Part shown: positions 20,976 to 59,889 of the stretch, piece after piece | How positions within the stretch are numbered: the stretch's first letter is position 1 | Layout: each line of letters starts with the position of its first letter | Source of the DNA: Daejeonella sp. H1SJ63 | GTDB taxonomy: Bacteria; Bacteroidota; Bacteroidia; Sphingobacteriales; Sphingobacteriaceae | NCBI RefSeq assembly: GCF_029360775.1 | Contig: NZ_JARKMZ010000028.1 | Location: 372,001 to 436,000 of the forward strand | Length of the DNA: 64,000 nucleotides | Direction of reading: 5' to 3' | The notes under the pieces: generated by a model | The model's input: the letters and a program-made list of their open reading frames with translations, nothing else | Told to the model about the DNA's origin: nothing | The model's database searches: none | Program-made: the position numbers and the translations under genes

Positions 20976-21169
20976 AAAAAAGCATTGTCGTTCTTCGGGG
21001 ATATTTACTTCGTTCCTCGAATTTTCACTAACAATATTCGATTTTTTAATTTTTATTATATCATCGGATATATATGGTGTTCGAAAAAGAAATGAACATG
21101 AATATTAAATTTTCTTGTTAGCCTGATTATCCTTTCAGAACAGGGATCAGGAAACTTTTTATTCAGATT

Positions 21170-21835
21170 TTATGTTTTTGCAGGCTTTTTTAGCTTGGCT
21201 GTTAATACTCCTCTGGTAGAATTCTCATCAACCAACTTGCTATTTCTTACATTGGTATAAATTCTATAGGTTTTGGTTCTTTCCAAATGTTTCTCTTCCA
21301 AAATTTCAAATTCCGGAAAGTAATCACGGATAAAATTCCAGTTCATGGTTTGCGGTTCAGTCAAGGTGGGTCTGGTATGAATATCTACCAGCAGCAAAAA
21401 AAGACCATCAGGCTTCAGTGTTCTGCTAATTTCCCTGCAGGCAAGTTCCATATTTTCAACATGATCCAATGAATTGAATGAGGAAATGATGTCGAAATAA
21501 TTATCGGGGAAGGGGATGTCTTCAACATAGGCTTTAAGATAGCTCATTTTATGTTCTTTTGCACCCATTTTGAGGTATTGATCAGCAAGCGGGTCGATTC
21601 CTATCCTTTCCTTTACCATATCCGCCCATTCTAAAGAACCTCTCGGGCCGCAACCGATATCCAGTATGATTTTGTCATTATAAAACTCTTCAGATAATGA
21701 AAAGTTGCTTGTGTAAAAATGTTTATAATGGGAATTGTCATTAAGCTTTTTAGAAAATAGCTTAACTATTTTCCAGTAACTCAGTTCAAAAATCTCTTTA
21801 AAGGATAAGGAGCTATTGGTCGATTGGGAATTCAT
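21170..21835 (-). CDS. class I SAM-dependent methyltransferase
   Basis: The protein of 221 residues has the SAM-binding motif I (ILDIGCGPRGS), an acidic loop (ERIGIDPLA), motif II (FPDNYFDIISSFNSLDH) and LKPDGLFLLLVD. These mark a Methyltransf_11-type enzyme. ATG at 21835 is preferred to a TTG at 21871. The substrate cannot be told; it has no signal peptide and no related neighbour. The 221-base gap between it and yjdM holds only AT-rich sequence and the yjdM -7 element. Confidence 0.8.
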   Translation of the reverse strand: MNSQSTNSSLSFKEIFELSYWKIVKLFSKKLNDNSHYKHFYTSNFSLSEEFYNDKIILDIGCGPRGSLEWADMVKERIGIDPLADQYLKMGAKEHKMSYLKAYVEDIPFPDNYFDIISSFNSLDHVENMELACREISRTLKPDGLFLLLVDIHTRPTLTEPQTMNWNFIRDYFPEFEILEEKHLERTKTYRIYTNVRNSKLVDENSTRGVLTAKLKKPAKT

Positions 21836-21971
21836 TATTTTGCGTTGAAACGTTCCGGCGAATTTATTCAAATGAATCAGGATTTAGGCACAATCTTATA
21901 TTGAATTATTTTTTATTTAAGATTGTCTGGTGGTAGTTCTCTTTAGGATTGTATAGTGAAAATAAATTTCT

Positions 21972-22012
21972 AAAAAAAAAAAGCTCCCGAATGGACTAAA
22001 TACGGGAGCTTT
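21972..22012 (-). terminator. strong terminator of the amidohydrolase operon
   Basis: The stem AGCTCCCG with CGGGAGCT is followed, on the minus strand, by an unbroken run of about eleven T. It lies 22 bases beyond the stop of the last amidohydrolase gene. Confidence 0.85.
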
Positions 22013-22033
22013 TCAGATTTGTAGCTTTCACTT

Positions 22034-23293: not shown

Positions 23294-23294
23294 T

Positions 23295-24593: not shown

Positions 24594-24617
24594 AGTTTAT
24601 GTTGTTTTATTCTTTTC

Positions 24618-25895: not shown

Positions 25896-26085
25896 TGTTA
25901 ATTGCGTGTTAATTATTCTCCAATATAAATCAAGATTTTTAACGACAGGCATCTCAACCGAAGATTTCTTTCAGATTAGCCTGAAAAGCTTTGAAAATTG
26001 CCATTTGTTGAAGATTTTGATTTTATAACATATTTATTACATTTAAATTAAGGCCACCATTTAGTTCAATTCACATCAATATCCT

Positions 26086-42940: not shown

Positions 42941-44257
42941 ATGAAAAGAAGAAAATTCATGACAAATACGCTTTTAGCAGGTTTGGGAAGCATCAGTCTT
43001 GGTGCGTATGGATTTGGTCATGCTAATGAGCCTGAAGGTACCGCTAACACATTAATATCGGGTTTGGATTTAAACAAACTTCATGAATTTTATCGTTCTG
43101 AGATTTTTAATCGCTTTGTGCCAAATATGGACAAATATGTGATTGATCATCAAAATGGTGGTTTTATGACTTCCATAGATATTACCAATGGACAGCAGGC
43201 AACTTCTAATAAAACTGCCTGGTTTGAGGGGCGTGGCATGTGGACTTATTCTTTTCTGTATAATAACCTTGATAAAAATCCTGAATACCTGGAAATCGCA
43301 AGAAAATCTAAAGATTTTATCCTGAAGTCGCAGCCAAAGGATAACAGCTTCTGGACCTCTTCATTTGATAAATCAGGTAAGCCACTCGGTGGTCCCGGAG
43401 ATATTTACAGCAGTTTATTTGTTGCTGAAGGCTTAGCCGAATATGCAAAAGCTTCGGGCGAAAAGCAGTACCATGATCTTGCAAAGAAGATCATATTATC
43501 CTGTCTCGACAGATACGATAGCCCTGATTACGATTATTATGTTGCCTATTTAAATCCCGGAGCAACTAAAATAAAGGCACCAAGGGTTCTGGGACACTGG
43601 ATGGTTTTCCTCAGAGCAGCGACCCAGATGCTGGAAAGAGGGCCGGATGCAGATATGCAAAAACTTGCTGACCGTTGTTTAGATGCCTGCCTGAATCATC
43701 ACCTTAATCCTGAGTATGGATTGTTTAATGAGGTGTTAAACCATGATTTCAGTCGCCCTGATAATTCTTACAAAGACTTTGCATACACCGGTCATGGTAT
43801 CGAGACCTGCTGGATGCTGCATTTTGAGGCAGCCAGAAGGAAAGACAGAAAGCTTTTTGACAGAATTACTGAGGTGTTTAAAAGACATGTTACTGTTGCA
43901 CATGATGATGTTTTTGGCGGGTATTTCAGAGCACTTGATCATGTAGATAATAATATCTGGAAGGTTGATAAAGTTTTATGGCTTCAGGAGGAGGTCTTGA
44001 TTGGCAGTATGTTTATTGCCGAGCATACAGGAGATAAATGGGCGGTACAACGCTTCAATGAGACTCTCAAATACGTTCGTGAAAAATTTGCCAAGCCGGG
44101 TAATTTGTTCTGGGCATCGGCAGGCGACAGATATCTGAAAGATTACGCTAAATTGAGAGCCGAACATTATCATCATCCCAGACATTTAATGCTGAATCTG
44201 ATCTCATTAAAAAGAATGATCAAACGTGGTGGTAAAACATCCAATATATTCGGGTAA
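42941..44257 (+). CDS. Tat-exported AGE-family epimerase, copy 1
   Basis: ATG at 42941 gives a twin-arginine signal (MKRRKFMTNTLLAGLGS); TTG at 42902 is rejected. The 438-residue product keeps AGE marks: a TGHGIETCW segment with the active-site His and EHYHHPRHLM near the C-terminus. AGE enzymes are normally cytosolic, so an exported form is unusual. It is 54% or so alike by eye to the next gene in key blocks, showing a tandem duplication. Probable role: sugar or amino-sugar 2-epimerase or isomerase acting in the periplasm. Confidence 0.8.
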   Translation: MKRRKFMTNTLLAGLGSISLGAYGFGHANEPEGTANTLISGLDLNKLHEFYRSEIFNRFVPNMDKYVIDHQNGGFMTSIDITNGQQATSNKTAWFEGRGMWTYSFLYNNLDKNPEYLEIARKSKDFILKSQPKDNSFWTSSFDKSGKPLGGPGDIYSSLFVAEGLAEYAKASGEKQYHDLAKKIILSCLDRYDSPDYDYYVAYLNPGATKIKAPRVLGHWMVFLRAATQMLERGPDADMQKLADRCLDACLNHHLNPEYGLFNEVLNHDFSRPDNSYKDFAYTGHGIETCWMLHFEAARRKDRKLFDRITEVFKRHVTVAHDDVFGGYFRALDHVDNNIWKVDKVLWLQEEVLIGSMFIAEHTGDKWAVQRFNETLKYVREKFAKPGNLFWASAGDRYLKDYAKLRAEHYHHPRHLMLNLISLKRMIKRGGKTSNIFG

Positions 44258-44286
44258 TTAGTATCCGGTATTTGAAAAAGAATTAT

Positions 44287-45633
44287 ATGATAGATAAAGA
44301 ATATTCAAGACGCGACTTTTTAAAACGGAATTCGACTGCCGGATTAGGAATTTTTGGCGGGGCAGGTCTTGCAACTTCATTGGTGCCTGAAAAGGCTGAA
44401 GCTGCAATAGCCGGGAATGAGCAGCAAATCGGTAAAATTTCAGATCTTAATCTCAAGCAGCTTCGCGAAACTTACAGAGAAGCCCTTCTCGGGAAGTTTA
44501 TTCCTAATATGAATAAGTATGTGGTTGACCATGAACTGGGTGGTTTTATGTGTTCTGTTGATATTCTTACAAGAAAACTGATTAATACCAATAAAAGAGC
44601 GTGGTTTGAAGGCAGAGGGATCTGGATGTACTCATTTTTATATAATAATCTGGATAAAAATCCATTATATCTCGGGATCGCAAGAAAGTCTAAAGATTTT
44701 ATTTTAAAGTTATTGCCTTCGGATGGCAGCTATTATATTTCAGGCTTTACAAAAGAAGGTCAGCCTTTAGGTAATACAGAAGGGGATATTTACGGGAATC
44801 TGTTTGTAGCTGAAGGTCTGGCAGAATATGCAAAGGCCAGTGGTGAAAGACAATATTTTGATCAGGCAAAGGAAATTATGCTCAAGGCTGTTCAAAGATA
44901 TGACAGGCCCGAATTTACCTATGCCTACAAAGCAGAGAAAAGAGAATCCGGTCCGCGAATTCTTGGACACTGGATGATTCTTTTAAGTTTGTGTACACAA
45001 ATGCTTCGTCAGCGTTCTGATAAAGAGGTCAGAGCTTTAGCCGACCGTTGTGTGGATGCGATTATGAATCACCATCTCAATAAAGACTTCAGACTTTTAA
45101 ATGAGGCTTTGGCTCATGATCTGAGTCCTTTGACCGATCCTGTTGCATCGCAGTTTGCTGATATTGGTCATGGATGTGAAACACTGGCTTTTGTGATGAA
45201 TTATGCGGTATTGATTAAAGATAAGGCTTTGTTCAACAGAGCCGCAGCAGAGTTTAAAAGGCATGTTGATATAGCCTGGGATGATGTATATGGCGGGCAT
45301 TTCCATGCGATGGATCATGTAGCTACCAATACATGGCAGTTAAATAAACTGCGCTGGCTGCAGGAAGAGATTCTGATCGGGGCAATGATTTTGATCGAAC
45401 ATACCGGGGATGAATGGGCAATTAATTGTTATGCAAAAACTGAAGCCTATATCCGCGAGAAATATGTACGCCCTCAGTTTGCTTTTGTGATTGATAGCGG
45501 AGACCGAAAGATGGAAAAGCATACACAGGTACGTGCAGAACATTATCATTATCCTCGTCAGCTAATGGTGGGTATTCTGGCTATTGACAGAATTATAGCC
45601 CGTGGAGGGAAACCTTCAGGCATTTTTGCCTGA
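44287..45633 (+). CDS. Tat-exported AGE-family epimerase, copy 2
   Basis: ATG at 44287 is preferred to TTG at 44272 because it leaves an ideal Tat motif near the N-terminus (YSRRDFLKRN). The 448-residue paralog of copy 1 shares whole blocks such as YNNLDKNP, RKSKDFILK and EGLAEYAKASGE. In the active-site helix it has GHGCETLAF where copy 1 has GHGIETCW, so a conserved Trp is lost. Substrate preference may have shifted. It follows copy 1 by 29 bases. Confidence 0.8.
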   Translation: MIDKEYSRRDFLKRNSTAGLGIFGGAGLATSLVPEKAEAAIAGNEQQIGKISDLNLKQLRETYREALLGKFIPNMNKYVVDHELGGFMCSVDILTRKLINTNKRAWFEGRGIWMYSFLYNNLDKNPLYLGIARKSKDFILKLLPSDGSYYISGFTKEGQPLGNTEGDIYGNLFVAEGLAEYAKASGERQYFDQAKEIMLKAVQRYDRPEFTYAYKAEKRESGPRILGHWMILLSLCTQMLRQRSDKEVRALADRCVDAIMNHHLNKDFRLLNEALAHDLSPLTDPVASQFADIGHGCETLAFVMNYAVLIKDKALFNRAAAEFKRHVDIAWDDVYGGHFHAMDHVATNTWQLNKLRWLQEEILIGAMILIEHTGDEWAINCYAKTEAYIREKYVRPQFAFVIDSGDRKMEKHTQVRAEHYHYPRQLMVGILAIDRIIARGGKPSGIFA

Positions 45634-45684: not shown

Positions 45685-46737
45685 ATGGCAAATACAAAGT
45701 ATGAAGGACAGGCGTTTTATAATGCGCCATTCGTGGTTAATAGTTTTAAAGAAATGCCTTACCGGGTTCTGGGTAAATCAGGTCTGAAGGTGTCGGATAT
45801 TGGTTTGGGTACCTGGAAAATGGGCTATCCTGAAAGTGGAGATGGTTCGCGCATAGACGAAAAGAGTTCTTTTAAAATATTTGACCGGGCCCTTGAACTG
45901 GGAGTGACATTCTGGGACACAGCAAACCGGTATAATAATGCTTCCGGAAATTCTGAGCGGATCATAGGGAAGTGGTTTAAGAAAAATCCTGACCAGAGGC
46001 GCAATGTGGTGCTTGCGACAAAAATGGCCGGAACAATGGACGGATTAAGTCCGAATCACTGTGGGCTTTCAAGAGGAAATATCATGGAAGCAGTATACGC
46101 TAGTCTCGAAAGGCTTCAAACTGATCATATTGACCTGCTTTATTTTCACAGATTTGATGGAATAACCCCTCCTGAAGAGAGTTTGATAGCAATTGAAGAT
46201 CTGGTAAAGCAGGATCTGATACGTTATTTTGCCGTGTCAAATGCCAGTGTTGAGATTCTTAAAACCTTCCAGGCTGTACAGTCTCAGATGTCTGTCAGAA
46301 GCCGGATACTTGCTGTACAGAATCAGTTTGATCTGCTCGATGGAGAAGCAGCAGAAGATAGGGGTGTTTTGAATTATGCTACCGAACAAGGGATATCGTT
46401 CATTGGCTGGAGCCCGATGGCAAGGGGGCTGCTGACAAACCGGTACCTAAATCCTGTAAATGCAGGCCCTGGTGACCGTTTGTTCGACGAGGGGGACCTG
46501 AAAGCAAAAATAAGTCCTGAAAATATGGGTAAACTGCATGCACTTGCGGCTGTTTCTGATGAAATGGGAGTTGAGCTCAGTCAGCTTGTTATGGCATATA
46601 TGCTGACAATGAAGGGTATGGGGCCAATCATTCCTTCATCCTCCAGTGTGAAGCAGCTTGAATCAAATGCTGCAGCAGGTAAGATTGTGCTTAGCGAAGA
46701 GCAGATTGAAAAAGTTAAAGCTATCGTAAAGTATTAA
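45685..46737 (+). CDS. aldo/keto reductase
   Basis: The 350-residue TIM-barrel protein has AKR signatures: WDTANRYNNASGNSERIIG with the catalytic Asp and Tyr, the catalytic Lys in LATKMAG, and HIDLLYFHRFD with the His. It ends with IIPSSSSVKQLESNAAA. ATG at 45685 is used rather than the TTG one codon earlier. There is no signal peptide, so it is cytosolic. It would reduce or oxidise a sugar aldehyde or ketone with NADP(H). It sits between the exported epimerases and a lyase. Confidence 0.88.
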   Translation: MANTKYEGQAFYNAPFVVNSFKEMPYRVLGKSGLKVSDIGLGTWKMGYPESGDGSRIDEKSSFKIFDRALELGVTFWDTANRYNNASGNSERIIGKWFKKNPDQRRNVVLATKMAGTMDGLSPNHCGLSRGNIMEAVYASLERLQTDHIDLLYFHRFDGITPPEESLIAIEDLVKQDLIRYFAVSNASVEILKTFQAVQSQMSVRSRILAVQNQFDLLDGEAAEDRGVLNYATEQGISFIGWSPMARGLLTNRYLNPVNAGPGDRLFDEGDLKAKISPENMGKLHALAAVSDEMGVELSQLVMAYMLTMKGMGPIIPSSSSVKQLESNAAAGKIVLSEEQIEKVKAIVKY

Positions 46738-46749: not shown

Positions 46750-48318
46750 ATGGAAAAAATAAAAAGCATTTTTGCTGTTTTTATAGTCACTTTTTCACTT
46801 ATTCCTGCTGTTTTTTCTCAAACTAAAAGACCGGATCAGGAGGCTCGTTCTGCAATGCTCAGAGCCACCCGATTTATGGTTGAGAAAGCAAGTGTAAACG
46901 GAGGCTATGTTGCACATTATTTGCCTGATTTTTCACGCAGATGGGGAGAGCTGGAAGCATTTCCCACACAGGTTTGGGTACAGGATCCGGGTACAGTAAG
47001 TATGGGTAATATTTTTCTTGATGCGTACGACGCAACCGCTGATGAATATTATTATCAGGCTGCTGAAAAAGTTGCTGCTGCGCTTATCTGGGGGCAGCGT
47101 CCTGAAGGTGGCTGGAATTATATGATTGATTTTGGCGGTGACCGTTCTCTGAAAGAATGGTATAATACAATCGGTAAGAATGCATGGGGTTTTGAAGAGT
47201 ATTATTATTACTATGCCAATACAACTTTTGACGATTCCAATACGTCAGGACCAGCAACATTTTTGCTGAGACTTTTTCTGCAGAAAATGGATGTTAAATA
47301 CAAGCCGGCACTCGATAAAGCAATTCAGTTGATTATTGATAGCCAATATCCGCTTGGAGGATGGCCGCAGCGTTACCCCCTGAAGAATAATCATCCTAAA
47401 AACGGAAAGGAGGATTATTCGGCATATTATACCTTTAATGATGAAGTTACTTCCGGAAATATCGATTTTCTGATTCTTTGTTATTCTTTATTGGGAGAAG
47501 AACGTCTTTTAGATCCTATCCGCAGAGGGATGAATTTTTATCTGATTACTCAGCAGGGTAATCCTTATGGAGGCTGGGGGCAGCAATATAATATGGACCT
47601 TCAGATTGCTCATGCACGGAGCTATGAACCTCCTGCTTTGATGCCGGGATTCACATATACACATTGTTTGCTACTGATGAAATACTATCAGCTTACCGGC
47701 GACAGGAAGTTTCTTGCCAGAATTCCGGATGCTATTAAATGGTTGGAAGATTCTAAACTGCCAGCTGATAAAACTTTAGGCGGAACACGTACTCATGCTA
47801 CATTTGTTGAAGCAGGAACCAATAAGGGGATTTATGCCCACCGTACAGGTACAGGTGTAGCTGATGGGAAATATTGGTGGGATTATGATGACAATAATCT
47901 GCTGGCCCATTATGGTGGAAAAGCTAATATCAATATTCAGTTCCTAAAGGATGAGTATAAAAGGATTAGCACACTTTCGCCGGAAGAGGCTACCAGAAAC
48001 TCTCTATTGAAAGCCGGAAAGATTTCAGTTTCACAACTACCTCAACGATATTTTTCTTCTCTTACTTCTGCAGTAGTCATGCCCTCTGATCAGGCTGTTA
48101 ACGATATTATTCGTGCACTGGATCAGGACAGATGGCTGGTTAAACACATTCAGATCAGCAGACCATATTCTGTTGCAGCAGATGGTAAAGAAATGAACAC
48201 AGCCAAGCTGAGCGATGAAAATGGAAAGGGAATTGTGGATTCTTCAGATCAGCAGTATATATCAACCAGAGAGTATGAAAAGAATATGTCTCTTCTCATC
48301 CGGTATTTAAAGCGCTGA
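46750..48318 (+). CDS. exported PL10-like pectate lyase
   Basis: The 522-residue protein has a Sec signal peptide (AVFSQ) and alpha/alpha-barrel pectate lyase segments: GGWPQRYPL, YYTFNDEVTSGNIDF, then LPADKTLGGTRTHATF. These fit polysaccharide lyase family 10 and its relatives. It would cleave uronic-acid-containing chains and supply unsaturated sugars to the exported enzymes. It starts 12 bases after the reductase stop. Proteins with this fold but other substrates exist. Confidence 0.75.
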   Translation: MEKIKSIFAVFIVTFSLIPAVFSQTKRPDQEARSAMLRATRFMVEKASVNGGYVAHYLPDFSRRWGELEAFPTQVWVQDPGTVSMGNIFLDAYDATADEYYYQAAEKVAAALIWGQRPEGGWNYMIDFGGDRSLKEWYNTIGKNAWGFEEYYYYYANTTFDDSNTSGPATFLLRLFLQKMDVKYKPALDKAIQLIIDSQYPLGGWPQRYPLKNNHPKNGKEDYSAYYTFNDEVTSGNIDFLILCYSLLGEERLLDPIRRGMNFYLITQQGNPYGGWGQQYNMDLQIAHARSYEPPALMPGFTYTHCLLLMKYYQLTGDRKFLARIPDAIKWLEDSKLPADKTLGGTRTHATFVEAGTNKGIYAHRTGTGVADGKYWWDYDDNNLLAHYGGKANINIQFLKDEYKRISTLSPEEATRNSLLKAGKISVSQLPQRYFSSLTSAVVMPSDQAVNDIIRALDQDRWLVKHIQISRPYSVAADGKEMNTAKLSDENGKGIVDSSDQQYISTREYEKNMSLLIRYLKR

Positions 48319-48501: not shown

Positions 48502-48966
48502 ATGAAATCAACCATTTTATTTGGCTCCTTGCTTATTCTTGGATTAACTTCCTGCATTAACAATCAGACAACCGAAACGAAGAAAGCTATCTCAGAGAAA
48601 AAGTTTATCATGCCTGAAGGGTATAATCGGGGACTCCCATTTACTCCGGGAATATTGGTTGACGGAACACTTTATGTTGCCGGCTTTAGCGGTGAAGATG
48701 CAAAGACCGGTGTAATTCCTGAAGATTTTGAAACTGAGGTAAAGCAGGCTCTTGATAAGATCGGGGTTATCCTTAAAGAAGCTGATATGGATTATAAAGA
48801 TGTAGTATCTGTTCAGGTTTATCTTACTGATATGACGCTATTTGATCGTATGAATAAAGTATATCGTACTTATTTCGATGAGCCACGTCCAACCAGGTCA
48901 ATAATGGGGCTTAAGGAATTAATTGGTCCGGCAAGATTTGAGATAACAGTAACCGCACGTAAATAA
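48502..48966 (+). CDS. Rid-family (YjgF-like) lipoprotein
   Basis: The 154-residue product starts with a lipoprotein signal; the lipobox is LTSC (Cys18). A Rid domain follows (GILVDGTLYVAGFSGED, YKDVVSVQVYLTD, EPRPTRSIMG). The Arg matching E. coli RidA Arg105 is not present: the aligned stretch reads LKELIGPARFEI. It is the second exported Rid protein in the window, here tethered to a membrane. It is followed by nagB after 62 bases. Confidence 0.85.
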   Translation: MKSTILFGSLLILGLTSCINNQTTETKKAISEKKFIMPEGYNRGLPFTPGILVDGTLYVAGFSGEDAKTGVIPEDFETEVKQALDKIGVILKEADMDYKDVVSVQVYLTDMTLFDRMNKVYRTYFDEPRPTRSIMGLKELIGPARFEITVTARK

Positions 48967-49028: not shown

Positions 49029-49766
49029 ATGAAAGTAGTAATTTCCGAAAATCCGGTTGAATTAGGTAAAGTATCAGCAATTGCAGCAGCAGAAGGAATT
49101 ATCAATGCAATAAAGGAAAAAGGACAAGCAAATATTATTCTGGCTACAGGAGCAAGCCAGTTTGAAACCCTGAAAAATCTTATAGAAAATAAAGAAATAG
49201 ACTGGTCAAAAGTGGTGATGTTCCACCTTGATGAGTATATAGGATTACCTGAAAGCCACCCGGCAAGTTTCAGAAAGTATTTAAAAGAACGTTTTCTTCA
49301 AAAGGTTAGTACTCTGAAGGCAAGTTATCTGGTTAATGGAGAAAACGATCCTGAGGCAGAATGTTCGCGTTTAAACAAAATTATTCAGGAGCATCCCATT
49401 GATGTTGCATTGGTAGGAATAGGTGAAAACGGACATCTGGCATTTAATGATCCCCCTGCCGATTTTGATATTGAAGATCCTTACATTATTGTAAACCTTG
49501 ATGCAAAATGTCGTTTACAACAATTTAACGAAGGCTGGTTTGAAACCCTCGAGCTTGTTCCGCAAAGGGCAATCAGCATGTCTGTAAAGCAGATTTGCAA
49601 ATCTAAACTGATTATTTGTTCAGTTCCTGATACTAGAAAAGCTGAAGCGGTAAGAGATACAATTGAAAATGAAGTAAGTAATCTTTATCCTGCTTCAATT
49701 TTGCAGAAGCATTCAAATTGTATTTGCTATCTGGATAAATCTTCAGCTTCCTTATTGTCTGAATAA
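49029..49766 (+). CDS. nagB: glucosamine-6-phosphate deaminase-like protein
   Basis: The 245-residue protein matches NagB: FHLDEYIGLPESHPASFRKY, with the LDEY motif, and VGIGENGHLAFNDPPADF with the catalytic loop. It would turn glucosamine-6-phosphate into fructose-6-phosphate and ammonia in the cytoplasm. It is slightly shorter than E. coli NagB (266). It ties the surrounding exported enzymes to amino sugar use. It is followed by the SelA-fold gene after 16 bases. Confidence 0.88.
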   Translation: MKVVISENPVELGKVSAIAAAEGIINAIKEKGQANIILATGASQFETLKNLIENKEIDWSKVVMFHLDEYIGLPESHPASFRKYLKERFLQKVSTLKASYLVNGENDPEAECSRLNKIIQEHPIDVALVGIGENGHLAFNDPPADFDIEDPYIIVNLDAKCRLQQFNEGWFETLELVPQRAISMSVKQICKSKLIICSVPDTRKAEAVRDTIENEVSNLYPASILQKHSNCICYLDKSSASLLSE

Positions 49767-49782: not shown

Positions 49783-50991
49783 ATGAAACGTAGAGACCTC
49801 ATAAAATATTTATCTGTTGCTCCTCTTGCAGGCGGACTTACAGGTGTGCCTTTTAAATCAGCAGCAGCTTCAACAGCTCTAAAAAGAGATTTGATACAGG
49901 AGCTTGGACTCAGGACTTTTATCAACGCTTATGGTGTTTATACCACTCATACTGCATCCCTGATGCCTGAAGAAGTTATGGAGGCTATTAATGCTGCTTC
50001 TAAAAAGTATGTACTGATCAATGATTTGCAGGATAAAGTTGGTGAGAAGATTGCCGAAATGTGTCATGCAGAATCTGCAATGGTTACCTCAGGATGCTGG
50101 TCTGCCCTTGTTCTGGGAACAGCAGGTGTTTTAACAGGAATGGATAAAACCAAGGTTGCTAAACTTCCTGATGTTTCAGAATTTGAACGTAATGAAGTCA
50201 TTCTTCAGAAAACACACAGCGGATCTTATGATCATGCATTGACCAATACAGGAATTAAACGGGTATTTGTTGAAACTGCTGAGGAATTTGAGAATGCAAT
50301 CAATCCGAAGACGGCCATGACCTGGTTTTATAATGAAGCTGCACCATGGGGTAAGATTGGTCATGATGAATGGCTCAGGATTTCTAAAAAGCATAAAATA
50401 CCTGCTATGGTAGATATTGCAGCTGATGTTCCTCCGGTTGAAAATCTCTGGAAATTCAATGAAATGGGCTATGACCTGGTTTGCGTTTCAGGAGGCAAGG
50501 CTATCCGCGGACCGCAAAGTGCCGGGATATTGATGGGACGAAAAGAGTTTATCTCTGCAGCCCGTTTAAGCGCTCCTCCGGGAGGTGGAAATATCGGAAG
50601 AGGGATGAAAGTGAACAAGGAAGAGATATTTGGCATGTATGCAGCACTTGATCGCTTTGTGAAGCTTGACCATGGAAAGGAATGGCAGATGTGGGAAGAC
50701 AGGGCCAGAGTTATCCTGAATGCAGTTTCAAAAGTAAAAGGAGTAAAAGCAGAGATCTTTGTTCCGCCAATAGCAAATGTTACCCCAACTCTGAGAATAT
50801 CATGGGATCAGTCGATAATTAAGCTGACACCTAAAGATATGACTCTGAATTTGCGGAACGGAGTGCCTTCCATTGAAGCACCCAAAAGTATCAATGATGC
50901 TATGATTCTTTCTGTATGGATGATGCAGCCTGGCGAAGAGAAAATTGTAGCAAAGCGTTTTGCAGAAGAATTGATCAAGGCCAGTGTTTAA
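49783..50991 (+). CDS. Tat-exported SelA-fold PLP enzyme, short paralog
   Basis: The 402-residue protein starts with a twin-arginine signal (MKRRDLIKYLSVAPLAGG) and has the PLP domain with candidate Lys239 (SGGKAIRGPQSAG) and Asp211 (MVDIAADVPP). It lacks the C-terminal beta domain of the paralog at 14203. The best known relatives are DgaE-type amino-sugar-acid ammonia-lyases. It lies between nagB and an exported amidohydrolase, the pairing seen for cytosolic versions elsewhere. The substrate is probably an aminated sugar acid, which is inference. Confidence 0.87.
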   Translation: MKRRDLIKYLSVAPLAGGLTGVPFKSAAASTALKRDLIQELGLRTFINAYGVYTTHTASLMPEEVMEAINAASKKYVLINDLQDKVGEKIAEMCHAESAMVTSGCWSALVLGTAGVLTGMDKTKVAKLPDVSEFERNEVILQKTHSGSYDHALTNTGIKRVFVETAEEFENAINPKTAMTWFYNEAAPWGKIGHDEWLRISKKHKIPAMVDIAADVPPVENLWKFNEMGYDLVCVSGGKAIRGPQSAGILMGRKEFISAARLSAPPGGGNIGRGMKVNKEEIFGMYAALDRFVKLDHGKEWQMWEDRARVILNAVSKVKGVKAEIFVPPIANVTPTLRISWDQSIIKLTPKDMTLNLRNGVPSIEAPKSINDAMILSVWMMQPGEEKIVAKRFAEELIKASV

Positions 50992-51011: not shown

Positions 51012-52265
51012 ATGATTCGTAAAATATTTATCCTGTTAACTGCACATTTTTTACTGTTTGCAGTAAGTTATGCACAAAGGCCTTATAGTATTGTAATTAA
51101 GGGTGGGCATGTGATTGATGCAAAGAACAATATCAATGAGCTGATGGATGTTGCAGTTAAGGATAACAAAATTGTTCGTGTAGCTAAAAATATAGATACA
51201 GCACAGGCCTTACAGGTAGTAAATGCAAAGGGAATGTATGTTACCCCGGGCCTGATTGATTTACACGGGCATGTTTTTTATGGTTTTGATCCGGATAGTT
51301 ATCTGAGTGGAGGAACAGTGGCGGTATTACCCGATCAGTCTACTTTCAGGGCGGGTGTAACCACTATTGTAGATGCGGGTGGTGCCGGATGGAGGTCATT
51401 TGGAACTTTTAAGAAGAATATCATAGATGTATCTAAGACCAGAGTTCTTTCATTGCTGAATATAGTAGGAGAGGGAATGAGAGGAATTGAAAAATATGAA
51501 CAGAACGTAAATGACATGGACGCGCGTCGTACAGCCGATACAGCGCTTGCACATAAGGATTATGTTGTTGGATTTAAAGTAGCACATTTTACCGGGTCAG
51601 AATGGACACCTATTCAGCGTGGTGCAGAGGCTGGTAAGCTGGCAGATATGCCTGTAATGATCGATTTGAACAGCCTTTATTTCTCTATTGAAGAACTGTT
51701 TACTAAATACCTCCGCCCCGGAGATATTTATACACACACCTTTATACAGTCATCAAGAGGGGTGGTAGAGCCAATTGTTGACCTTAAAACAAAGAGATTT
51801 AAGCCCTTTGTACTTGAAGCTCAAAGAAAAGGGATCATATTTGATGTTGGTTTCGGCGGCGGGAGTTTCAATTTTAATCAGGCACTTCCTGCTCTTAAGG
51901 CTGGGTTCTATCCTAACACTATGGGTACAGATATTCATCAGGGAAGCGTGAACGGTGCCATGAAGGATCAGATGAATGTATTATCTATATTTTATGCAAT
52001 GGGTATGAAAATTCCCGATCTGATTAAAGCCAGTACCTGGACTCCTGCCCGGGTAATAAAACGTACAGAACTGGGTAATCTCTCGGAAGGTTCAGTTGCA
52101 GATATTGCAATCATCAGTATGCGAAAAGGTAATTTTGGATTCAGAGATGTTGCCGGGAATAAATATTCAGGTACTCAGAAGTTTGAATGCGAGATGACTA
52201 TTCGTGATGGTAAGGTTGTTTATGATCTGAATGCTATAGCCGGACAGGTTCGTAAATCCAATTAA
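51012..52265 (+). CDS. exported cog3964 amidohydrolase/deacetylase, copy 4
   Basis: ATG at 51012 (MIRKIFILLTAHFLL) gives a Sec signal peptide ending SYAQ; starts further upstream would overlap the PLP gene and bury the signal. The 417-residue protein keeps HGH in LIDLHGHVF, Lys in VGFKVAHFTG, His in IYTHTFI and Asp in GTDIHQG. The strand 5 ligand is Asp (VMIDLN), as in copies 2 and 3. It is nearest to copy 2 by shared GMRGIE and DMDA blocks. It starts 20 bases after the SelA-fold gene. Confidence 0.86.
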   Translation: MIRKIFILLTAHFLLFAVSYAQRPYSIVIKGGHVIDAKNNINELMDVAVKDNKIVRVAKNIDTAQALQVVNAKGMYVTPGLIDLHGHVFYGFDPDSYLSGGTVAVLPDQSTFRAGVTTIVDAGGAGWRSFGTFKKNIIDVSKTRVLSLLNIVGEGMRGIEKYEQNVNDMDARRTADTALAHKDYVVGFKVAHFTGSEWTPIQRGAEAGKLADMPVMIDLNSLYFSIEELFTKYLRPGDIYTHTFIQSSRGVVEPIVDLKTKRFKPFVLEAQRKGIIFDVGFGGGSFNFNQALPALKAGFYPNTMGTDIHQGSVNGAMKDQMNVLSIFYAMGMKIPDLIKASTWTPARVIKRTELGNLSEGSVADIAIISMRKGNFGFRDVAGNKYSGTQKFECEMTIRDGKVVYDLNAIAGQVRKSN

Positions 52266-52564: not shown

Positions 52565-53110
52565 ATGGAAAATAATAAGCCGGAACTTCATGATGACGGG
52601 TATTTATTACTCCAGTTGCAACAAGGTTGTAAAACTGCTTTTAATATCCTGTATAACAAGTATTGGGAGCACACCTATTCAAATGCCTATAAACGTTTGC
52701 AGGATACTGAGCAGGCAAAAGATATTGTTCAGGAGATCTTTGTAAGTATCTGGATGAACAGACAAAATTCAATAACAAATCTGCCGGCATATCTTAGTAT
52801 CTCAGTTCGTAATCAGGTATTTAAACTAACTGCAAAAAACAAAAACCTGTCTCCGTTTATTGAGGCTTTTGAAAATATACCGGCTTCTAATCAAAAGACA
52901 GATTCTAATATTCTTTATGATGAATTTTACAGGGCTTATGAAGCCTTGTTGCTTAAACTCCCGCCTAAACGGCAGCAGATATTCAGATTAAGGTTTCATG
53001 AAGATATTCCAACTAAAACAATAGCTGTGCAGATGCGGATTTCCCGCAAGACGGTTCAAAATCAATTGGGGAAAGCAATTGATCAGTTGCGTGTAATACT
53101 TCAGGATTAA
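52565..53110 (+). CDS. ECF RNA polymerase sigma factor
   Basis: The 181-residue protein has region 2 (DIVQEIFVSIWMNR) and region 4 (LPPKRQQIFRLRFHEDIPTKTIA with a helix-turn-helix). It is of the Bacteroidota SusC-linked ECF type. It heads an ECF-FecR-SusC-SusD set, so it probably drives the susCD genes once a signal is relayed through the STN domain and FecR. The gap 52266-52564 upstream has only a near-match to a -7 element (TATATTTT). Confidence 0.92.
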   Translation: MENNKPELHDDGYLLLQLQQGCKTAFNILYNKYWEHTYSNAYKRLQDTEQAKDIVQEIFVSIWMNRQNSITNLPAYLSISVRNQVFKLTAKNKNLSPFIEAFENIPASNQKTDSNILYDEFYRAYEALLLKLPPKRQQIFRLRFHEDIPTKTIAVQMRISRKTVQNQLGKAIDQLRVILQD

Positions 53111-53286: not shown

Positions 53287-54273
53287 ATGAACAGATCTTA
53301 TATACTTGAGTTGTATCATAAATACTTAGCAGGAAAGGCTTCAAAGGAAGAACGCGAACTGCTTTTAAGTCATTATGAACTGTTTGATTCAGAATCTGAC
53401 GGGCTGGATTCACTGTCTGATCTTGAAAAGAAGGTTATTCGTGATGAAATTGAAGAAGAAATCAGACAAAAGATTTCCGCAGCAGAGAAGACAGTTAACT
53501 CACTGTCTAAAAAACGTTATTTATGGATGACTGGAATTACTGTGGCAGCTTCACTGCTTATATTCTTTAGTATTTCCATTGTTCAAAATACCTCTAATAA
53601 ACCTCATGTTTCAGGTTCGGTCTTATCCAGGTTAACTCAGGAAAAGGAAAATCGTTTGATTCGCTTACCTGATGGCAGTTCTGTAATTATCAGTGCGGGC
53701 AGTAAACTGAATTATCCATCATCATTTGATGGATTAGCAAAAAGGGAAGTCTATCTGGATGGGGAGGCTTATTTTGATGTAAAGCACAATTCGGTTAAGC
53801 CATTTGTAATCTATACCGGCAAACTTAAAACAACAGTTTTGGGGACTGCATTTAATATAAGTGCATGGTCAGATTCAGATGATATCACAGTTACAGTTGC
53901 CAGAGGTAAGGTAAAAGTAGAGGATCTTGATAATAAGACTATTGGTGTAATTACTCCTAACCATCAGATTAAATACGACAAAATTAATACGAATATCGTT
54001 GAGAAAGAGGTCAGCAGTCCTGAATACCTTAAATGGAAAGAGGAGGATCTTTTGCTAAGCGATGTTTCTGTTGCTGAGGCAGCTGAATTACTGGAAGATC
54101 GTTATAAAGTGAAGATTCATATCTCTGATAATCAGATTAAATCAAAACGCTTTACAACAATTGTTAGAAAAGAAGAAGCTCTTGATAAAATTTTGAATAG
54201 TATTTCGGAATTTAATGATGCAGTTTATAGTTATGATAATGATAAATCGTCGATTATTATTAATTCGAAATAG
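53287..54273 (+). CDS. FecR-type anti-sigma regulator
   Basis: The 328-residue protein has a cytosolic anti-sigma part (residues 1-75), one membrane helix (YLWMTGITVAASLLIFF, about 77-95), a periplasmic FecR domain (RLPDGSSVIISAGSKLNY, VYLDGEAYFDV) and a C-terminal DUF4974-like domain. It should hold the ECF factor and release it when the SusC STN domain signals. It lies between the ECF gene and susC. Confidence 0.92.
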   Translation: MNRSYILELYHKYLAGKASKEERELLLSHYELFDSESDGLDSLSDLEKKVIRDEIEEEIRQKISAAEKTVNSLSKKRYLWMTGITVAASLLIFFSISIVQNTSNKPHVSGSVLSRLTQEKENRLIRLPDGSSVIISAGSKLNYPSSFDGLAKREVYLDGEAYFDVKHNSVKPFVIYTGKLKTTVLGTAFNISAWSDSDDITVTVARGKVKVEDLDNKTIGVITPNHQIKYDKINTNIVEKEVSSPEYLKWKEEDLLLSDVSVAEAAELLEDRYKVKIHISDNQIKSKRFTTIVRKEEALDKILNSISEFNDAVYSYDNDKSSIIINSK

Positions 54274-54473: not shown

Positions 54474-57400
54474 ATGATTTTTTTTACACTACTTGCTGAA
54501 CGTCAGCAAACGGACCTGTTTCCATTTGATCTGAAGCTTTTATTCAGATCGATATATCGATTAATTATGCAGCTCAGATTAGCATTTTTTATAATCCTGA
54601 CTACATCAATCCAGCTTTTTTCGGCACCTCCGGTAAAAAGTCAGGCTATTGATAAAGTAGAGATAAGCCTCGAGTTGAAAAACGAGTCTTTGATTAAAGC
54701 TTTTCAAAAAATTGAAAAGCAAAGTCCTTTTCAGTTTATGTATCGTTTGGCTGATGTCAGGGAAATCAATAAACTGGAAATGCCAACAGCAAAAATGTCT
54801 GTTGCTGAAGTGTTGAATCAGCTTCTGGCAAATACCTCGCTTGACTACAGACAGGTTGATAACCGCATCCTTATTATGAGCAATCAGAACAAGCTTAAGG
54901 GTGAATTACAGAATAACTTAGATGTTGTTGTACGCGGACAGGTAACCGATGCCAAAGGTGAAAGCCTTCCGGGTGTTAGTGTTAAAGTTAAAGGTACAGA
55001 AATAGGAGCTTCTACAGATATTGATGGAAGGTATTCTCTGACAGTTCCTGATAATGCAACTCTTGTATTTACCTATATAGGTTATATAACTAAAGAGGTT
55101 GCTGTAAACAGCCAATCCACAATAAATGTTATTCTTGAGTCAACTTCAACTTCTCTCAGCGAAGTTGTTGTAACTGCATTAGGTGTTAAGCGTGAAGCAA
55201 AATCACTGACTTATGCTACACAGGGTGTAAGTGCAAAAGAACTGACAGAGACACGTACTTTGAATGTTATGAATGCCTTACAGGGTAAAGTAGCCGGTAT
55301 GAGTATTGAAACAGCCGGTACAGGTTTGGGTGGCCAGGCTCGTGTTGTTCTGAGAGGAAACCGTTCAATCTCAGGAAACAGTGGTCCCCTTTATGTTGTT
55401 GACGGAGTTCCAATGAGCACAGCAATAGCTAACTTTAGTCCGGATAATATTGAATCTATCAACGTATTGAAAGGTCCAAATGCTGCAGCCTTGTATGGCA
55501 GTGCGGCTCAGAATGGGGTTATTATTATCGAAACTAAAAAAGGTAAAGAAGGTCAGGTTCAAATTAGCGTGAATGAAACATTCCAGACAGGACAACCTCT
55601 TCTATATTTCAAGCCTCAGAATGAGTATGGACAGGGAGTTACAGGTGTATATAATGCAACAGCTGAAGAATCCTGGGGGCCAAAAATGACCGGTCAGATG
55701 GTGAATCATTGGTCAGCTGCTCCCGGTAAAGCAGGAACGCAGTATGCATTCTCACCTCAGCCAAATAATTATAAAGATGTATTCCAGAACTCAACTTATG
55801 TGACGCATAACGTTACTGCCTCAGCAGGTTCTGCAAATACACAAACGGCATTTTCTTATACCAGAGAAGATGCAAAAGGATTGATGCAGACTAATAAGTT
55901 AAGAAGAGATAATGCATCTATCAGGGTAACCAGCAAGTTGAAAAAATGGCTTTCACTGGATACCAAATTAAATTATATCCGGAACGAAATTGATAACCAG
56001 AACGGAACCGGAGATAATGCGGCTAATAACCCATATATGAATATTTATCGTTTACCGCGAAATATTCAGTTTGATGATCTTAAACAATTTGAATATACTG
56101 ACGCAGCCGGTGCTAACAAGCAAAACTTCTGGAATCCGGGCTCTACAATAGGCAGGAATCCATTCTGGATCATGAACCGTGTTGTTAATTATGAAACAAC
56201 AGATCGTATAATTGCCTTGGGTTCATTGACCATTGACTTTACTGATAAATTAAAATTAATGGCAAGAACATCGTTTGATGGAGGATCCAGCACTACTGAA
56301 AGAAAGGCATGGATTGATTCTTATGGTGGCGGACAGGATAATTTTGGTAGCTATAGTGCCAGCATTACCGGTCCGGGTCAAATCTGGAACCATGATGCCC
56401 TTTTGACTTATAATAGTAACATCACCAAAAATCTGAATGTTTCAGCTTTGGCTGGTGGTACTTTAAGAAAGACAGATGGTTCAGGTAGTATCAGTGCGAG
56501 TACACAACAGGGACTGATTATTCCTAACTTCTTCTCATTTGGTAATACAGCCCTCACTCAGGGTGCATTTAATCCGGCCACAAGACAAGAGTTACAATCC
56601 CTGTACTTCTCAGGTAATTTTGGATGGAAGAATTATCTTTATCTTGATATCACCGGACGTAACGACTGGAGTTCAACCCTTCCTGCCAACAGCCGGTCAT
56701 ATTTTTATCCATCTGTAGGTCTTTCTTCAATTCTTACAGATATGATCCCGGGGCTACCTGATGTGATTTCATATGCAAAGCTTAGGGCTTCTTATGCCAA
56801 AGTAGGTAACAGTGCCTCACCTTATCAGTTAAACCGCTCTGCTGCCTTTGCAGGAACCGGTGGAAATTATGGTTTCATCACTTTAGGGGCTATTTTGCCT
56901 AATGCAAATCTTAAACCGGAAACTACTGAAGGATATGAAGTTGGATTGGATACCCGCTTGTTTGATGGTCGTTTAGGACTGGATATCACAGCCTACAAAA
57001 CCAATACTTTTGACCAGCTGTTTACAATTAGCTTACCATCGGGTTCCGGAGCGGCTTCCTTTTTTACTAATGGTGGAGACGTACAGAATACGGGAGTGGA
57101 GGTTGTATTATCGGCCACACCAGTCCAAAATGCAAATGGCTTAACCTGGGACATCAGCACTAATTTCGGAAAAAATAAGAACTGGGTTAATAAGATCTCT
57201 GATGATCGTCCAAGAATAATTGTTGGAGGTGATTCATATATGTCTGATTTCGTAGTAGCTCAGGGACAGGAATTTGGTAATATTTATACCAGAGGATGGG
57301 CCAGAGATGCTCAGGGAAGCGTGATTGTAGGTGCTAATGGTTTGCCAAACCTGACTCCCGGAAGATCTGTATTAGCTGCCAATTTTAACCCTGACTGGAT

Positions 57401-57941
57401 GGGTGCTATCACAAATAATTTTTCTTATAAGAATTTCAATTTTAGTTTCCTGATCGAGCACAGACAAGGTGGTAGTATGGTTTCCATTACCGATGGACTT
57501 CTGTACGGTGAAGGAATTACCAAAGAAACACTTGCGGGAAGAGAAGGTGGTTTAGTATTTGGAGAGAATTTATTTCCAAATGAGACCGGGGTGCTGGCTA
57601 GTGGATCACCGAATACCACTGCTATAAGTTCACAAACATTCTGGAGAACAATTGGAGGTAGAAATGCTCCGATAGGTGAAGCATTTATTGTCAGTGCAAC
57701 AAATACCAGAGTCAGAGAAGCTTCACTTGGCTATACTTTCCCTAAGTCCATGTTGAGCAAGGTCGGATTTATCTCAGGTGCCAAATTATCACTGGTTGGA
57801 AGGAATCTGTTCTTCTTAAAGAGAACAGGTAACTGGGATCCGGAAATTCTTTCAGGAGCAGGTACTGCATCTGCAGGTTTCCAAACCTATGTTCCGCCAA
57901 CTGAAAGAACTTTTGGTTTAAATCTGAAGATAGATTTTTAG
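54474..57941 (+). CDS. SusC/RagA-family TonB-linked outer membrane transporter with STN domain
   Basis: The 1155-residue protein has a signal peptide (about residues 32-55), an STN domain (QSPFQFMYRLADVREI) and a CarboxypepD_reg-like domain (GQVTDAKGESLPGVSVKVKG). The plug follows (VVDGVPMSTAIANFSPDNIES) and then the barrel. The STN domain marks a transducer type that signals to FecR. ATG at 54567 is an alternative start giving a shorter signal peptide. It imports oligosaccharides or peptides with the SusD protein next to it. Confidence 0.94.
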   Translation: MIFFTLLAERQQTDLFPFDLKLLFRSIYRLIMQLRLAFFIILTTSIQLFSAPPVKSQAIDKVEISLELKNESLIKAFQKIEKQSPFQFMYRLADVREINKLEMPTAKMSVAEVLNQLLANTSLDYRQVDNRILIMSNQNKLKGELQNNLDVVVRGQVTDAKGESLPGVSVKVKGTEIGASTDIDGRYSLTVPDNATLVFTYIGYITKEVAVNSQSTINVILESTSTSLSEVVVTALGVKREAKSLTYATQGVSAKELTETRTLNVMNALQGKVAGMSIETAGTGLGGQARVVLRGNRSISGNSGPLYVVDGVPMSTAIANFSPDNIESINVLKGPNAAALYGSAAQNGVIIIETKKGKEGQVQISVNETFQTGQPLLYFKPQNEYGQGVTGVYNATAEESWGPKMTGQMVNHWSAAPGKAGTQYAFSPQPNNYKDVFQNSTYVTHNVTASAGSANTQTAFSYTREDAKGLMQTNKLRRDNASIRVTSKLKKWLSLDTKLNYIRNEIDNQNGTGDNAANNPYMNIYRLPRNIQFDDLKQFEYTDAAGANKQNFWNPGSTIGRNPFWIMNRVVNYETTDRIIALGSLTIDFTDKLKLMARTSFDGGSSTTERKAWIDSYGGGQDNFGSYSASITGPGQIWNHDALLTYNSNITKNLNVSALAGGTLRKTDGSGSISASTQQGLIIPNFFSFGNTALTQGAFNPATRQELQSLYFSGNFGWKNYLYLDITGRNDWSSTLPANSRSYFYPSVGLSSILTDMIPGLPDVISYAKLRASYAKVGNSASPYQLNRSAAFAGTGGNYGFITLGAILPNANLKPETTEGYEVGLDTRLFDGRLGLDITAYKTNTFDQLFTISLPSGSGAASFFTNGGDVQNTGVEVVLSATPVQNANGLTWDISTNFGKNKNWVNKISDDRPRIIVGGDSYMSDFVVAQGQEFGNIYTRGWARDAQGSVIVGANGLPNLTPGRSVLAANFNPDWMGAITNNFSYKNFNFSFLIEHRQGGSMVSITDGLLYGEGITKETLAGREGGLVFGENLFPNETGVLASGSPNTTAISSQTFWRTIGGRNAPIGEAFIVSATNTRVREASLGYTFPKSMLSKVGFISGAKLSLVGRNLFFLKRTGNWDPEILSGAGTASAGFQTYVPPTERTFGLNLKIDF

Positions 57942-57985: not shown

Positions 57986-59653
57986 ATGAAAATATCAAAT
58001 CATATAAATAGAAGCGTGGCCTTTATGGCGATACTTCTTACCTTAGGGACAGGTTCATGTACCGACCAATTCGATGATCTCAATACTCCCCGCGCACAAC
58101 TTACTGTTGAGCAAATGGATGCGAGTATGGTTGGATTTGCGTTCGCTGAGGCTCAGCATTTTGGAATGAGAGCCTGGTATCAGGGCAATAACCTTTTTGC
58201 CGGTGAATACTCACAGTTTCACGCTATTATTCATCCTAACTTTGCATCCGCAAATTTTAACGGTCCGGGCAGCTGGTTAAACTTGTTAATGGAAGGTTTT
58301 TATTCGAATACAGCTTATGGAGCTGCAGCGAACCAGCTTGATTTAGTTCTTAAAACAACCGCAGCAAAAAATCTGAAGGTTGAAAATGCGCTTGCCAAGA
58401 TTTGGAAGGTTGCATTGTACCATCGTCAAACGGATTATTTTGGACCGATCATCTATTCTAATTTTGGTAATGGTAAAACTAGTGTTGCTTTTGATTCTCA
58501 AAAGGATATCTATTACGATTTCTTTAAGATTCTGGATGAGGCAGCAGTAGATTTGAGAGCTGCAAATCCGGCAGTCAAAATTTTCCCGATTAGTGGTGGA
58601 TCTCATGATCTTGTGTACGATGGGAATGTGTTAAAGAATCTTAAATTCTTGAATTCTTTGCGTTTGAGACTGGCGATGAGAATCTCTTATGTTGAACCGG
58701 CTAAAGCTAAACAGGAAGCTGAAAAAGCAGTATCCGCACCGGAAGGTCTTATCACAAACAATGCAGATAATGCACTTTCTAAGGTTAAAATTGACGGTAC
58801 CAATGTAAATAAGCTAAGCACAATTACTTATATCAGTGAATTTGTATTAAGCTCTACTCTTGCAAGTCTGATGAATGGCTATGAGGATCCCAGAATTCCT
58901 GTTTATACTCAGCCATGCTGCGGACGTTTAACTCCTGCCACTGCTGTATTTGGTGGGTTGGTTGGATTAAGAAATGGTAACCCTCCGGGGCAAAGAGGAA
59001 CTAACCTCGATTTGCAATATTCCTATGTTGGGAAAAAATGGTTGCCGATTAATAACGGAGGTACCAATGAGCCCGATCATATTATGGAAGCTGCAGAGGT
59101 GTTTTTCCTGAGAGCTGAGGGTGCATTAAGAGGATGGAATATGGGTGGAACTGCACAGCAGTTTTACAATGAAGGAATCAAAGCATCTCTTAAATTCAGA
59201 GCTAATGCTTCAGATGCTGTAATTGATGCTTATGTTAACAGTACTAAGCTGCCTGCAAAACCATTAGATAGATTCGGTAAGCCGGATGTAAGAAATAGTC
59301 CTCCTGTAACTGATATTCCGGTCCTTTATGAAACAGCTGGAAGTTTTGAGAGACAATTGGAGCAGATCATCACTCAGAAATGGCTTGCGCTTTTCCCAAT
59401 GAATGATACTGAAGCCTGGGCTGAACGTCGCAGAACAGGTTATCCAAGAGGTTATGCGATTATTGAGTCTGCTAATCCAGTTCTTACAAGAACTCAGCTG
59501 GCGAGAAGATTAATCTATCCACCAAACTCTTATTCCACCAATAAGGTGGCAACAGAAGCCGCTTTGGCTTTATTAGGTGGGCCGGATACTTATGCAACCA
59601 GACTTTGGTGGGATGCTAAGCCTTTGGCATCTTATCCAACTCCAACAGATTGA
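57986..59653 (+). CDS. SusD/RagB-family nutrient-binding lipoprotein
   Basis: The 555-residue protein has a lipoprotein signal (lipobox TGSC, Cys26) and a SusD-like helical repeat fold of the SusD-like_2 type (PTRAQLT-like start, QKWLALFPMNDTEAWAERRRTGYP near the C-terminus). It forms the lid over the SusC barrel. It is 44 bases after susC. It is followed by two hairpins that should reduce read-through. Confidence 0.92.
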   Translation: MKISNHINRSVAFMAILLTLGTGSCTDQFDDLNTPRAQLTVEQMDASMVGFAFAEAQHFGMRAWYQGNNLFAGEYSQFHAIIHPNFASANFNGPGSWLNLLMEGFYSNTAYGAAANQLDLVLKTTAAKNLKVENALAKIWKVALYHRQTDYFGPIIYSNFGNGKTSVAFDSQKDIYYDFFKILDEAAVDLRAANPAVKIFPISGGSHDLVYDGNVLKNLKFLNSLRLRLAMRISYVEPAKAKQEAEKAVSAPEGLITNNADNALSKVKIDGTNVNKLSTITYISEFVLSSTLASLMNGYEDPRIPVYTQPCCGRLTPATAVFGGLVGLRNGNPPGQRGTNLDLQYSYVGKKWLPINNGGTNEPDHIMEAAEVFFLRAEGALRGWNMGGTAQQFYNEGIKASLKFRANASDAVIDAYVNSTKLPAKPLDRFGKPDVRNSPPVTDIPVLYETAGSFERQLEQIITQKWLALFPMNDTEAWAERRRTGYPRGYAIIESANPVLTRTQLARRLIYPPNSYSTNKVATEAALALLGGPDTYATRLWWDAKPLASYPTPTD

Positions 59654-59755: not shown

Positions 59756-59889
59756 TAATCAATCTCTGATGTGGGATCTAAATTATTGATTCAGAGCTCA
59801 GAGAGCCTTATTTAAATTCTCTTTATTTATATAAAGAATGTGCTCTCTTGTTAATTTTCTATGATCACAAACTCCATAATCTGATTAAT

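Follow-up and report, generated by a model that had tools for sequence, protein, structure and literature searches.

Tandem AGE-superfamily genes with Tat-type leaders in Daejeonella: candidate periplasmic epimerases of N-acetylated hexosamines

Enzymes of the AGE superfamily are usually regarded as cytosolic. In the genome of Daejeonella sp. H1SJ63, two members of this superfamily lie side by side on contig NZ_JARKMZ010000028.1, and both begin with what looks like a twin-arginine translocation (Tat) leader. What would a pair of such enzymes do outside the cytoplasmic membrane, and would both do the same thing? We analyzed the pair within a window of 64,000 nucleotides (contig positions 372,001 to 436,000, forward strand; coordinates below are those of the window unless a locus or contig label precedes them). 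The two genes, which we call AGE_A and AGE_B, or A and B for short, are laid out as follows:

42941-44257, + strand: AGE_A (copy 1), AGE-superfamily protein with a Tat-type leader, 438 aa from the ATG; its open reading frame (ORF) opens at 42902 (TTG)
43793-43795, + strand: codon of the catalytic His of AGE_A, within GHGIETCW
44272 (TTG), + strand: opening of the AGE_B ORF; the ATG at 44287 is the likelier start
44287-45633, + strand: AGE_B (copy 2), AGE-superfamily protein with a Tat-type leader, 448 aa from the ATG
45169-45171, + strand: codon of the catalytic His of AGE_B, within GHGCETLAF

Our preferred interpretation, to which we give about an even chance, is that A and B are Tat-exported, probably active, periplasmic C2-epimerases that act on N-acetylated hexosamines (GlcNAc/ManNAc type) or on sugars with such a residue at the end.

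A first-pass annotation of the window, made from the sequence alone, had described a tandem of AGE epimerases at this position. We found that A and B are adjacent and co-oriented, share 50% identity over 447 columns, and both exceed the cut-off of the PF07221 profile (80.7 bits for A and 73.9 bits for B, against 23.4), which places them in the superfamily. The 3.65-Mb genome contains six PF07221 genes: A and B, a canonical AGE elsewhere in the window, and a triple cluster A'-C-B' outside it, neither of which the first-pass annotation had mentioned. The closest solved structures to both A and B are the GlcNAc 2-epimerases 2gz6 and 6f04 (113-117 bits), and cellobiose epimerase (CE) structures score at most 39.5 bits with A and 22 bits with B. 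An AlphaFold (AF2) model of B, built from a 48-row alignment, has a confident AGE fold (pLDDT 91.3, pTM 0.87) with an (alpha/alpha)6 barrel like that of the solved members. When this model was compared to known structures with Foldseek and VIA-align, AGEs came top (Z = 42.9-46.7), followed by CEs (Z = 41.0-42.4).

The leader of A reads MKRRKFM and that of B reads EYSRRDFLK. To see how well these leaders and the pair itself are conserved, we searched 60 genomes that included the strain's own and those of 19 genus-mates, 351 genomes of the family and 395 of the phylum; in the family and phylum searches at most four candidates were scored per genome, so member counts are lower bounds. A motif of the form RRx[FILMV] occurs near the N terminus in 13 of the 14 A proteins of the genus (the 14th is interrupted by a contig end) and in all 15 B proteins. 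In one of these, the B protein of locus L080, the ORF table sets the start too early and we picked the second RR by eye as the true motif. The genome has one copy of TatC. Thirteen sister proteins without an RR motif start much nearer to the catalytic domain; one truncated protein, L032_2, is excluded from the count of leader changes. From the motif, the hydrophobic stretch and the comparison of orthologs we infer that A and B are exported by Tat, in keeping with the Tat signals that the first-pass annotation had assigned to both, and its suggestion that exported epimerases imply a periplasmic step gains support from the same data. Export of an AGE-like fold alone has precedent, because 7tem, a solved structure with this fold (Z = 29.3 to the B model), is titled a putative exported protein. 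Among the titles and abstract openings of the best-ranked matches in the open-licence literature we found no exported AGE-family epimerase, though one may still be in print.

The pair is present in 13 of the 20 genomes of the genus, the strain's own included (one of the seven without it is only 68% complete), and in all 12 other genus-mates that have B, A lies directly upstream of it. In the phylum sample, matches at E = 1e-60 occur only in the strain's own genome and two others, both leaderless. Genes resembling A, B and C also occur in one genome from another genus of the same family (G106), where the C-like protein has no RR motif. We built a maximum-likelihood tree from 61 AGE proteins (63 matches, minus contained or identical ones); in it, the B clade consists of the 15 genus proteins and one from G106 (support 100/100), and the A clade of 14 genus proteins (99/93), which two G106 proteins join (97/98), one of them the long-branched C-like protein. 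From this tree we rely on the A and B clades alone, because long terminal branches carry a risk of false joins among them. On this tree A and B are separate clades. Estimates of the ratio of nonsynonymous to synonymous divergence (dN/dS) run from 0.05 to 0.16 for A and from 0.06 to 0.08 for B. Most of the pairs compared have saturated dS; in the sole pair with unsaturated dS (L034/L030) it is 0.052 for A and 0.056 for B. By these estimates both genes are under strong purifying selection.

The five catalytic residues of AGEs that could be mapped (Arg58, His240, Glu243, Glu309 and His373, in the numbering of nAGE10) are present in both A and B, and the set is retained in every protein of the genus (14 A and 15 B). 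The first-pass annotation had drawn attention to a difference at a conserved position of the active-site helix, GHGIETCW in A and GHGCETLAF in B. The motifs are as it quoted them and the catalytic H and E of GHxxE are identical in the two copies, but the I/C position is not a conserved one: I, L, M, V, F and C all occur there among the 61 proteins. GHGCETLAF is fixed in all 15 B proteins of the genus. Two positions near the pocket do distinguish the clades. Position 246, three residues past the Glu, is Trp in A (14 of 14 genus proteins) and Ala in B, and position 304, the first W of KxWW, is Leu in A (again 14 of 14) and Arg in B; both are fixed in each clade. A new substrate for copy 2, as the first-pass annotation proposed, is therefore possible, and the Arg of B hints at a negatively charged partner.

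The excerpted text of PMC6333288 gives Phe116, Ala173 and Ile177 as characteristic of AGEs, with Tyr, Asn and His at these sites in CE and YihS, and describes Trp368 of a Gly-rich loop as strictly conserved in AGEs. The three columns read Y/G/V in A, Y/G/I in B and F/S/I in the canonical AGE of the window, so that in the N-acetyl pocket of A and B two sites are small or aliphatic and the third is Tyr. Neither the Asn nor the third His of the CE/YihS C2 site is found in A or B, which have G and V/I in the A173 and I177 columns. By this comparison A and B resemble AGEs in having what looks like an open C2 pocket, and the remainder of the site differs.

If our interpretation is correct, A and B would fold in the cytosol, be translocated by Tat, and epimerize C2 by the proton transfer typical of AGEs, through the five residues listed above (published studies disagree on which of them are the acid and the base). 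Both would catalyze the same reaction, and since they differ at two near-pocket sites, probably on different substrates or substrate forms. Their products might be taken up, as suggested by a NagP-like carrier, NagA and a NagB-like protein in one relative, or might pass to exported oxidation, deacetylation and deamination enzymes of the same gene run. In the window this run, and the SusC/SusD unit that adjoins it, are:

45685-46737, + strand: aldo/keto reductase (AKR), no leader seen
46750-48318, + strand: PL10-like pectate-lyase-family protein, Sec-type leader (by eye)
48502-48966, + strand: RidA-family protein, lipoprotein leader (LTSC)
49029-49766, + strand: NagB-like protein of the glucosamine-6-phosphate deaminase family, scoring under the equivalog cut-off, no leader
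49783-50991, + strand: DgaE-like ammonia-lyase-family protein dependent on pyridoxal phosphate (PLP), Tat-type leader
51012-52265, + strand: amidohydrolase/deacetylase-family metallohydrolase (409.3 bits, cut-off 371), Sec-type leader; its ORF opens at 50916
52565-53110, + strand: ECF sigma factor of the adjoining SusC/SusD unit
53287-54273, + strand: FecR anti-sigma factor
54474-57941, + strand: SusC-like TonB-dependent receptor
57986-59653, + strand: SusD-like lipoprotein

The RidA protein retains, in the alignment, an Arg and a Glu that we take to be the RidA active site. This gene order is shared by eight genomes, the strain's own included, wherever the contig extends far enough. The seven others have a gene for a glucose/sorbosone-dehydrogenase-cytochrome c protein (GSDH-cytochrome c) between the PL10-like and RidA genes, which is missing there in the window. 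We considered loss of this dehydrogenase from the genome, but relocation is more likely because an 81% identical copy is present at C54:88881-90602, together with five full-length or nearly full-length paralogs. Locus L033 has a short dehydrogenase frame of 504 aa and an amidohydrolase frame broken in two. An AKR gene lies downstream of the pair in all 12 other genus-mates that have it, directly in 10 and after 1-3 genes in G003 and G018, two diverged genus-mates; there is none behind the triple cluster. Downstream of the pair, G003 and G018 have a sulfatase, the AKR and a sulfatase-modifying-factor-like protein, with no DgaE within the stretch examined. The genes after the pair in G003 include NagA (316.9 bits, cut-off 225.65) and a major facilitator superfamily (MFS) carrier that scores best with the NagP model (366.5 bits, below that model's cut-off of 625). 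Near the 13 leaderless sister AGE genes we found an SSS-type symporter at 12 loci, NagB-like and LacI-like genes at nine each and a NagA-like gene at four, and none of these at L090; the labels are best phmmer matches, checked by profile for L087, L088 and L089 only. The exported amidohydrolase, DgaE-like protein and RidA downstream of the pair, together with the NagA, NagB-like and NagP-like genes of G003 and the neighbors of the sister AGE genes, favor N-acetylhexosamines as the substrate.

Several observations weigh against this interpretation. Neither protein reaches the GlcNAc 2-epimerase equivalog NF052547 (158.8 bits for A and 159.4 for B, cut-off 600), a clear miss that led us to file them in the superfamily and not as GlcNAc 2-epimerases proper. 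The Tyr in place of Phe116 is the residue found in cellobiose epimerases. The Gly-rich loop (GGKWKG, with Trp368; proposed as an ATP site) is a gap without any Trp in the A and B proteins, and the canonical AGE of the window has it. The fold Z scores of the B model hardly tell AGE from CE. The NagB-like proteins of the window and of relatives fall below the equivalog cut-off (139 bits in G003, cut-off 236.9), and the MFS carrier of G003 passes only the cut-off for the glucose/galactose transporter gluP (227.7 bits against 202.55), not that for NagP. Finally, there is no glycosidase that releases N-acetylhexosamines among the operon genes scanned; no genome-wide search for one was made. We also considered whether the loop was lost as an adaptation to export and an ATP-free compartment, but rejected this because the leaderless sister AGEs lack the loop too.

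Much of this would fit a different substrate class: A and B could be exported C2-epimerases of neutral sugars or oligosaccharide ends, such as Glc/Man or cellobiose- or mannobiose-type sugars, that are not N-acetylated. The Tyr, the missing loop, the closeness of the CE and AGE fold scores and the G003 carrier all point in that direction, as does the PL10-like neighbor of the pair. We nevertheless consider this somewhat unlikely, because A and B lack the C2-site Asn and His of CE and YihS, because their scores to the CE model (EpiA, equivalog NF041848) are only 50.4 bits for A and 29.8 for B against a cut-off of 800, and because amino-sugar genes lie near the pair's relatives. A further difference from CE and YihS, with which A and B share superfamily, fold and the Tyr at the C2 site, is that position 309 is Glu and not Gln.

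The constant pairing of A with B would be accounted for if the two formed one hetero-oligomeric enzyme, or if B modulated A. The triple cluster bears on this alternative. It lies at locus L008, outside the window and about 47 kb from the pair, directly after a SusC/SusD pair:

L008:10051-11394: A', SRRxF leader
L008:11411-12763: C, between A' and B', SRRDFL leader, reading frame intact
L008:12834-14177: B', SRRxF leader

In C, His240 is replaced by Leu, Glu243 by Gln and Glu219 by Val; without the catalytic His and Glu it is probably an inactive enzyme. A probably dead copy of the kind that the first-pass annotation had envisaged thus exists in this genome, but in the second cluster. In G106 a C-like gene without an RR motif (L084:17230-18480) adjoins an A-like gene. 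Two settings in which C or a C-like gene sits beside A or an A-like gene, and the AGE dimers reported in the excerpted text of PMC6333288, are consistent with C being a dead partner in such a complex. On the other hand, G006 has a solitary B (L077) beside its pair, and there are solitary further members in G006 (L076) and G019 (L083). Moreover, A and B both have full catalytic sets, so neither need be a helper, and we regard a hetero-oligomer as unlikely. The two C-like proteins, from the strain's own genome (G000) and G106, may form one old clade of dead enzymes: they are not each other's nearest relatives by BLAST and the one from G106 has no RR motif, yet the approximately unbiased (AU) test does not reject a common clade (p = 0.20).

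The subfamily might alternatively have left epimerization and become a lyase or hydrolase of unsaturated or oxidized sugars on the same (alpha/alpha)6 barrel. A has a weak GH88 match (20.1 bits, below the cut-off of 26.6), barrels of the unsaturated-uronyl-hydrolase type rank further down among the fold matches (Z = 23.9-24.5), and heparinase-like lyases occur near relatives of the pair, but the AGE catalytic set is fully retained and AGEs stand about 20 Z units above such barrels, making this very improbable. That copy 2 is a decaying, inactive duplicate, the other suggestion made for it on the strength of its changed motif GHGCETLAF, is hardly credible and we rejected it, given that all 15 B proteins of the genus have this motif and the catalytic residues, dN/dS is about 0.06, the clade is separate (100/100) and the model is a confident AGE fold.

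We next consider the enzymes that might act with a periplasmic epimerase pair. In the phylum sample, DgaE-like proteins occur in 8 of the 395 genomes, the strain's own included, at E = 1e-40. We surveyed 28 of them from 20 loci, eight of which were picked because they hold the AGE pair. Every one of them begins with an RR leader. An amidohydrolase gene lies within 10 kb of 26 of the 28, a RidA-type gene of 25, a GSDH-cytochrome c gene of 20, an SMP-30-like gene of 9 and an RraA-like gene of 7; those at L130 and L131 have none of these neighbors. Numbered as in the excerpted text of PMC9529869 on the PLP enzyme DGL, with which they share fold family and catalytic Lys, the DgaE-like proteins keep the Lys in 28 of 28 cases, His162 in 2 and an Arg two columns past 301 in 13, whereas His163, Arg301 and Arg332 are found in none (L124_7059 is short, with a gap at the last of these). 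The DgaE-like protein downstream of the AGE pair (143.5 bits) keeps the PLP Lys and the Arg two columns past 301 but lacks the DGL His162/163 pair and phosphate Arg cluster, with N/E at the His pair and T and P at Arg301 and Arg332; Arg346 is beyond its alignment. Because the phosphate-site residues Arg301 and Arg332 and also His163 are absent, the substrate is probably non-phosphorylated, as an exported enzyme would need. The leader-bearing set as a whole, we infer, would act on hexosaminates.

It is possible, though we consider it doubtful, that certain Bacteroidota degrade N-acetylated amino sugars beyond the cytoplasmic membrane through a full exported chain. The AGE pair would fix the configuration at C2, an exported GSDH-cytochrome c would oxidize C1, an SMP-30-type lactonase would open the lactone, and an exported amidohydrolase would take off the acyl group. 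Ammonia would then be removed by the Tat-exported DgaE-like enzyme with exported RidA, with an exported RraA-type aldolase cleaving the keto acid in some families. In the titles and abstract openings of the best-ranked literature matches we found no exported DgaE/RidA/amidohydrolase set, though one may still be in print. A second group of leader-bearing enzymes lies on the minus strand of the window at 14203-25952, comprising a DgaE-like protein with a Tat-type leader (557 aa), GSDH-cytochrome c, a Gfo/Idh protein and three consecutive amidohydrolases.

The nearest parallel that we noted for the deaminating genes is the chitin oxidation (ong) pathway of Pseudoalteromonas, in which, according to the excerpted text of PMC9537276, genes for an N-acetyl-aldonate deacetylase, a PLP deaminase and RidA are clustered, the substrate is non-phosphorylated, and OngB and OngC are predicted to be cytoplasmic. 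The window likewise groups deacetylase-like, PLP-lyase-like and RidA genes. Unlike what that text describes, their products carry leaders (a Tat leader also sets the DgaE-like protein apart from DGL as presented in its excerpt) and AGE genes stand in front of them. We rejected OngB as the closest relative of the window's amidohydrolase, which belongs to a different subfamily and scores 23.8 bits with OngB as opposed to 170.8 with 8je0. As for the epimerases, A and B share superfamily, fold, the catalytic Arg/His/Glu/Glu/His and their top sequence scores with the AGEs of Anabaena (2gz6), Nostoc (nAGE10, 6f04) and Pedobacter heparinus (8bry), and differ from them in the Tat leader, Tyr for Phe116, Gly for Ala173, the absent loop, the distance from the equivalog cut-off and the tandem arrangement. 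The AGE kind of enzyme is known; its paired form with predicted export would be a new one. If our interpretation holds, this conserved pair would place sugar epimerization in the periplasm and add a step to amino-sugar handling by glycan-degrading bacteria. The pair would also let one ask how an AGE-type enzyme functions when the Trp368 loop is missing and, in the periplasm, no ATP is available. With the deacetylase-like, PLP-lyase-like, RidA and dehydrogenase proteins that bear leaders, nitrogen would be released from amino sugars outside the cytosol.

Three other features deserve mention. The canonical AGE of the window, predicted to be cytosolic, starts a row of genes at 4435-10310:

4435-5613: canonical AGE

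It is followed by an MFS-type carrier (by look only), an FAD oxidoreductase with a Tat leader (PF12831), a BNR-repeat protein and a RidA with a Tat leader, perhaps a sialic-acid or amino-sugar unit. Beyond the SusD-like gene, at 59848-62151, is a gene for a 767-aa protein without a Pfam match, a relative of which (L008:147-2159) has a stretch resembling a transglutaminase core by eye. Lastly, a further AGE type with a Tat leader, which we call type X, occurs at L067:8799-10157, with kin in G007 (L092) and G019 (L082). In type X, Gln replaces Glu243, Asp replaces Glu309 and the Ile177 column holds a His; the genes upstream of it in L067 are heparinase II/III-like, ceramidase-like and kelch genes.

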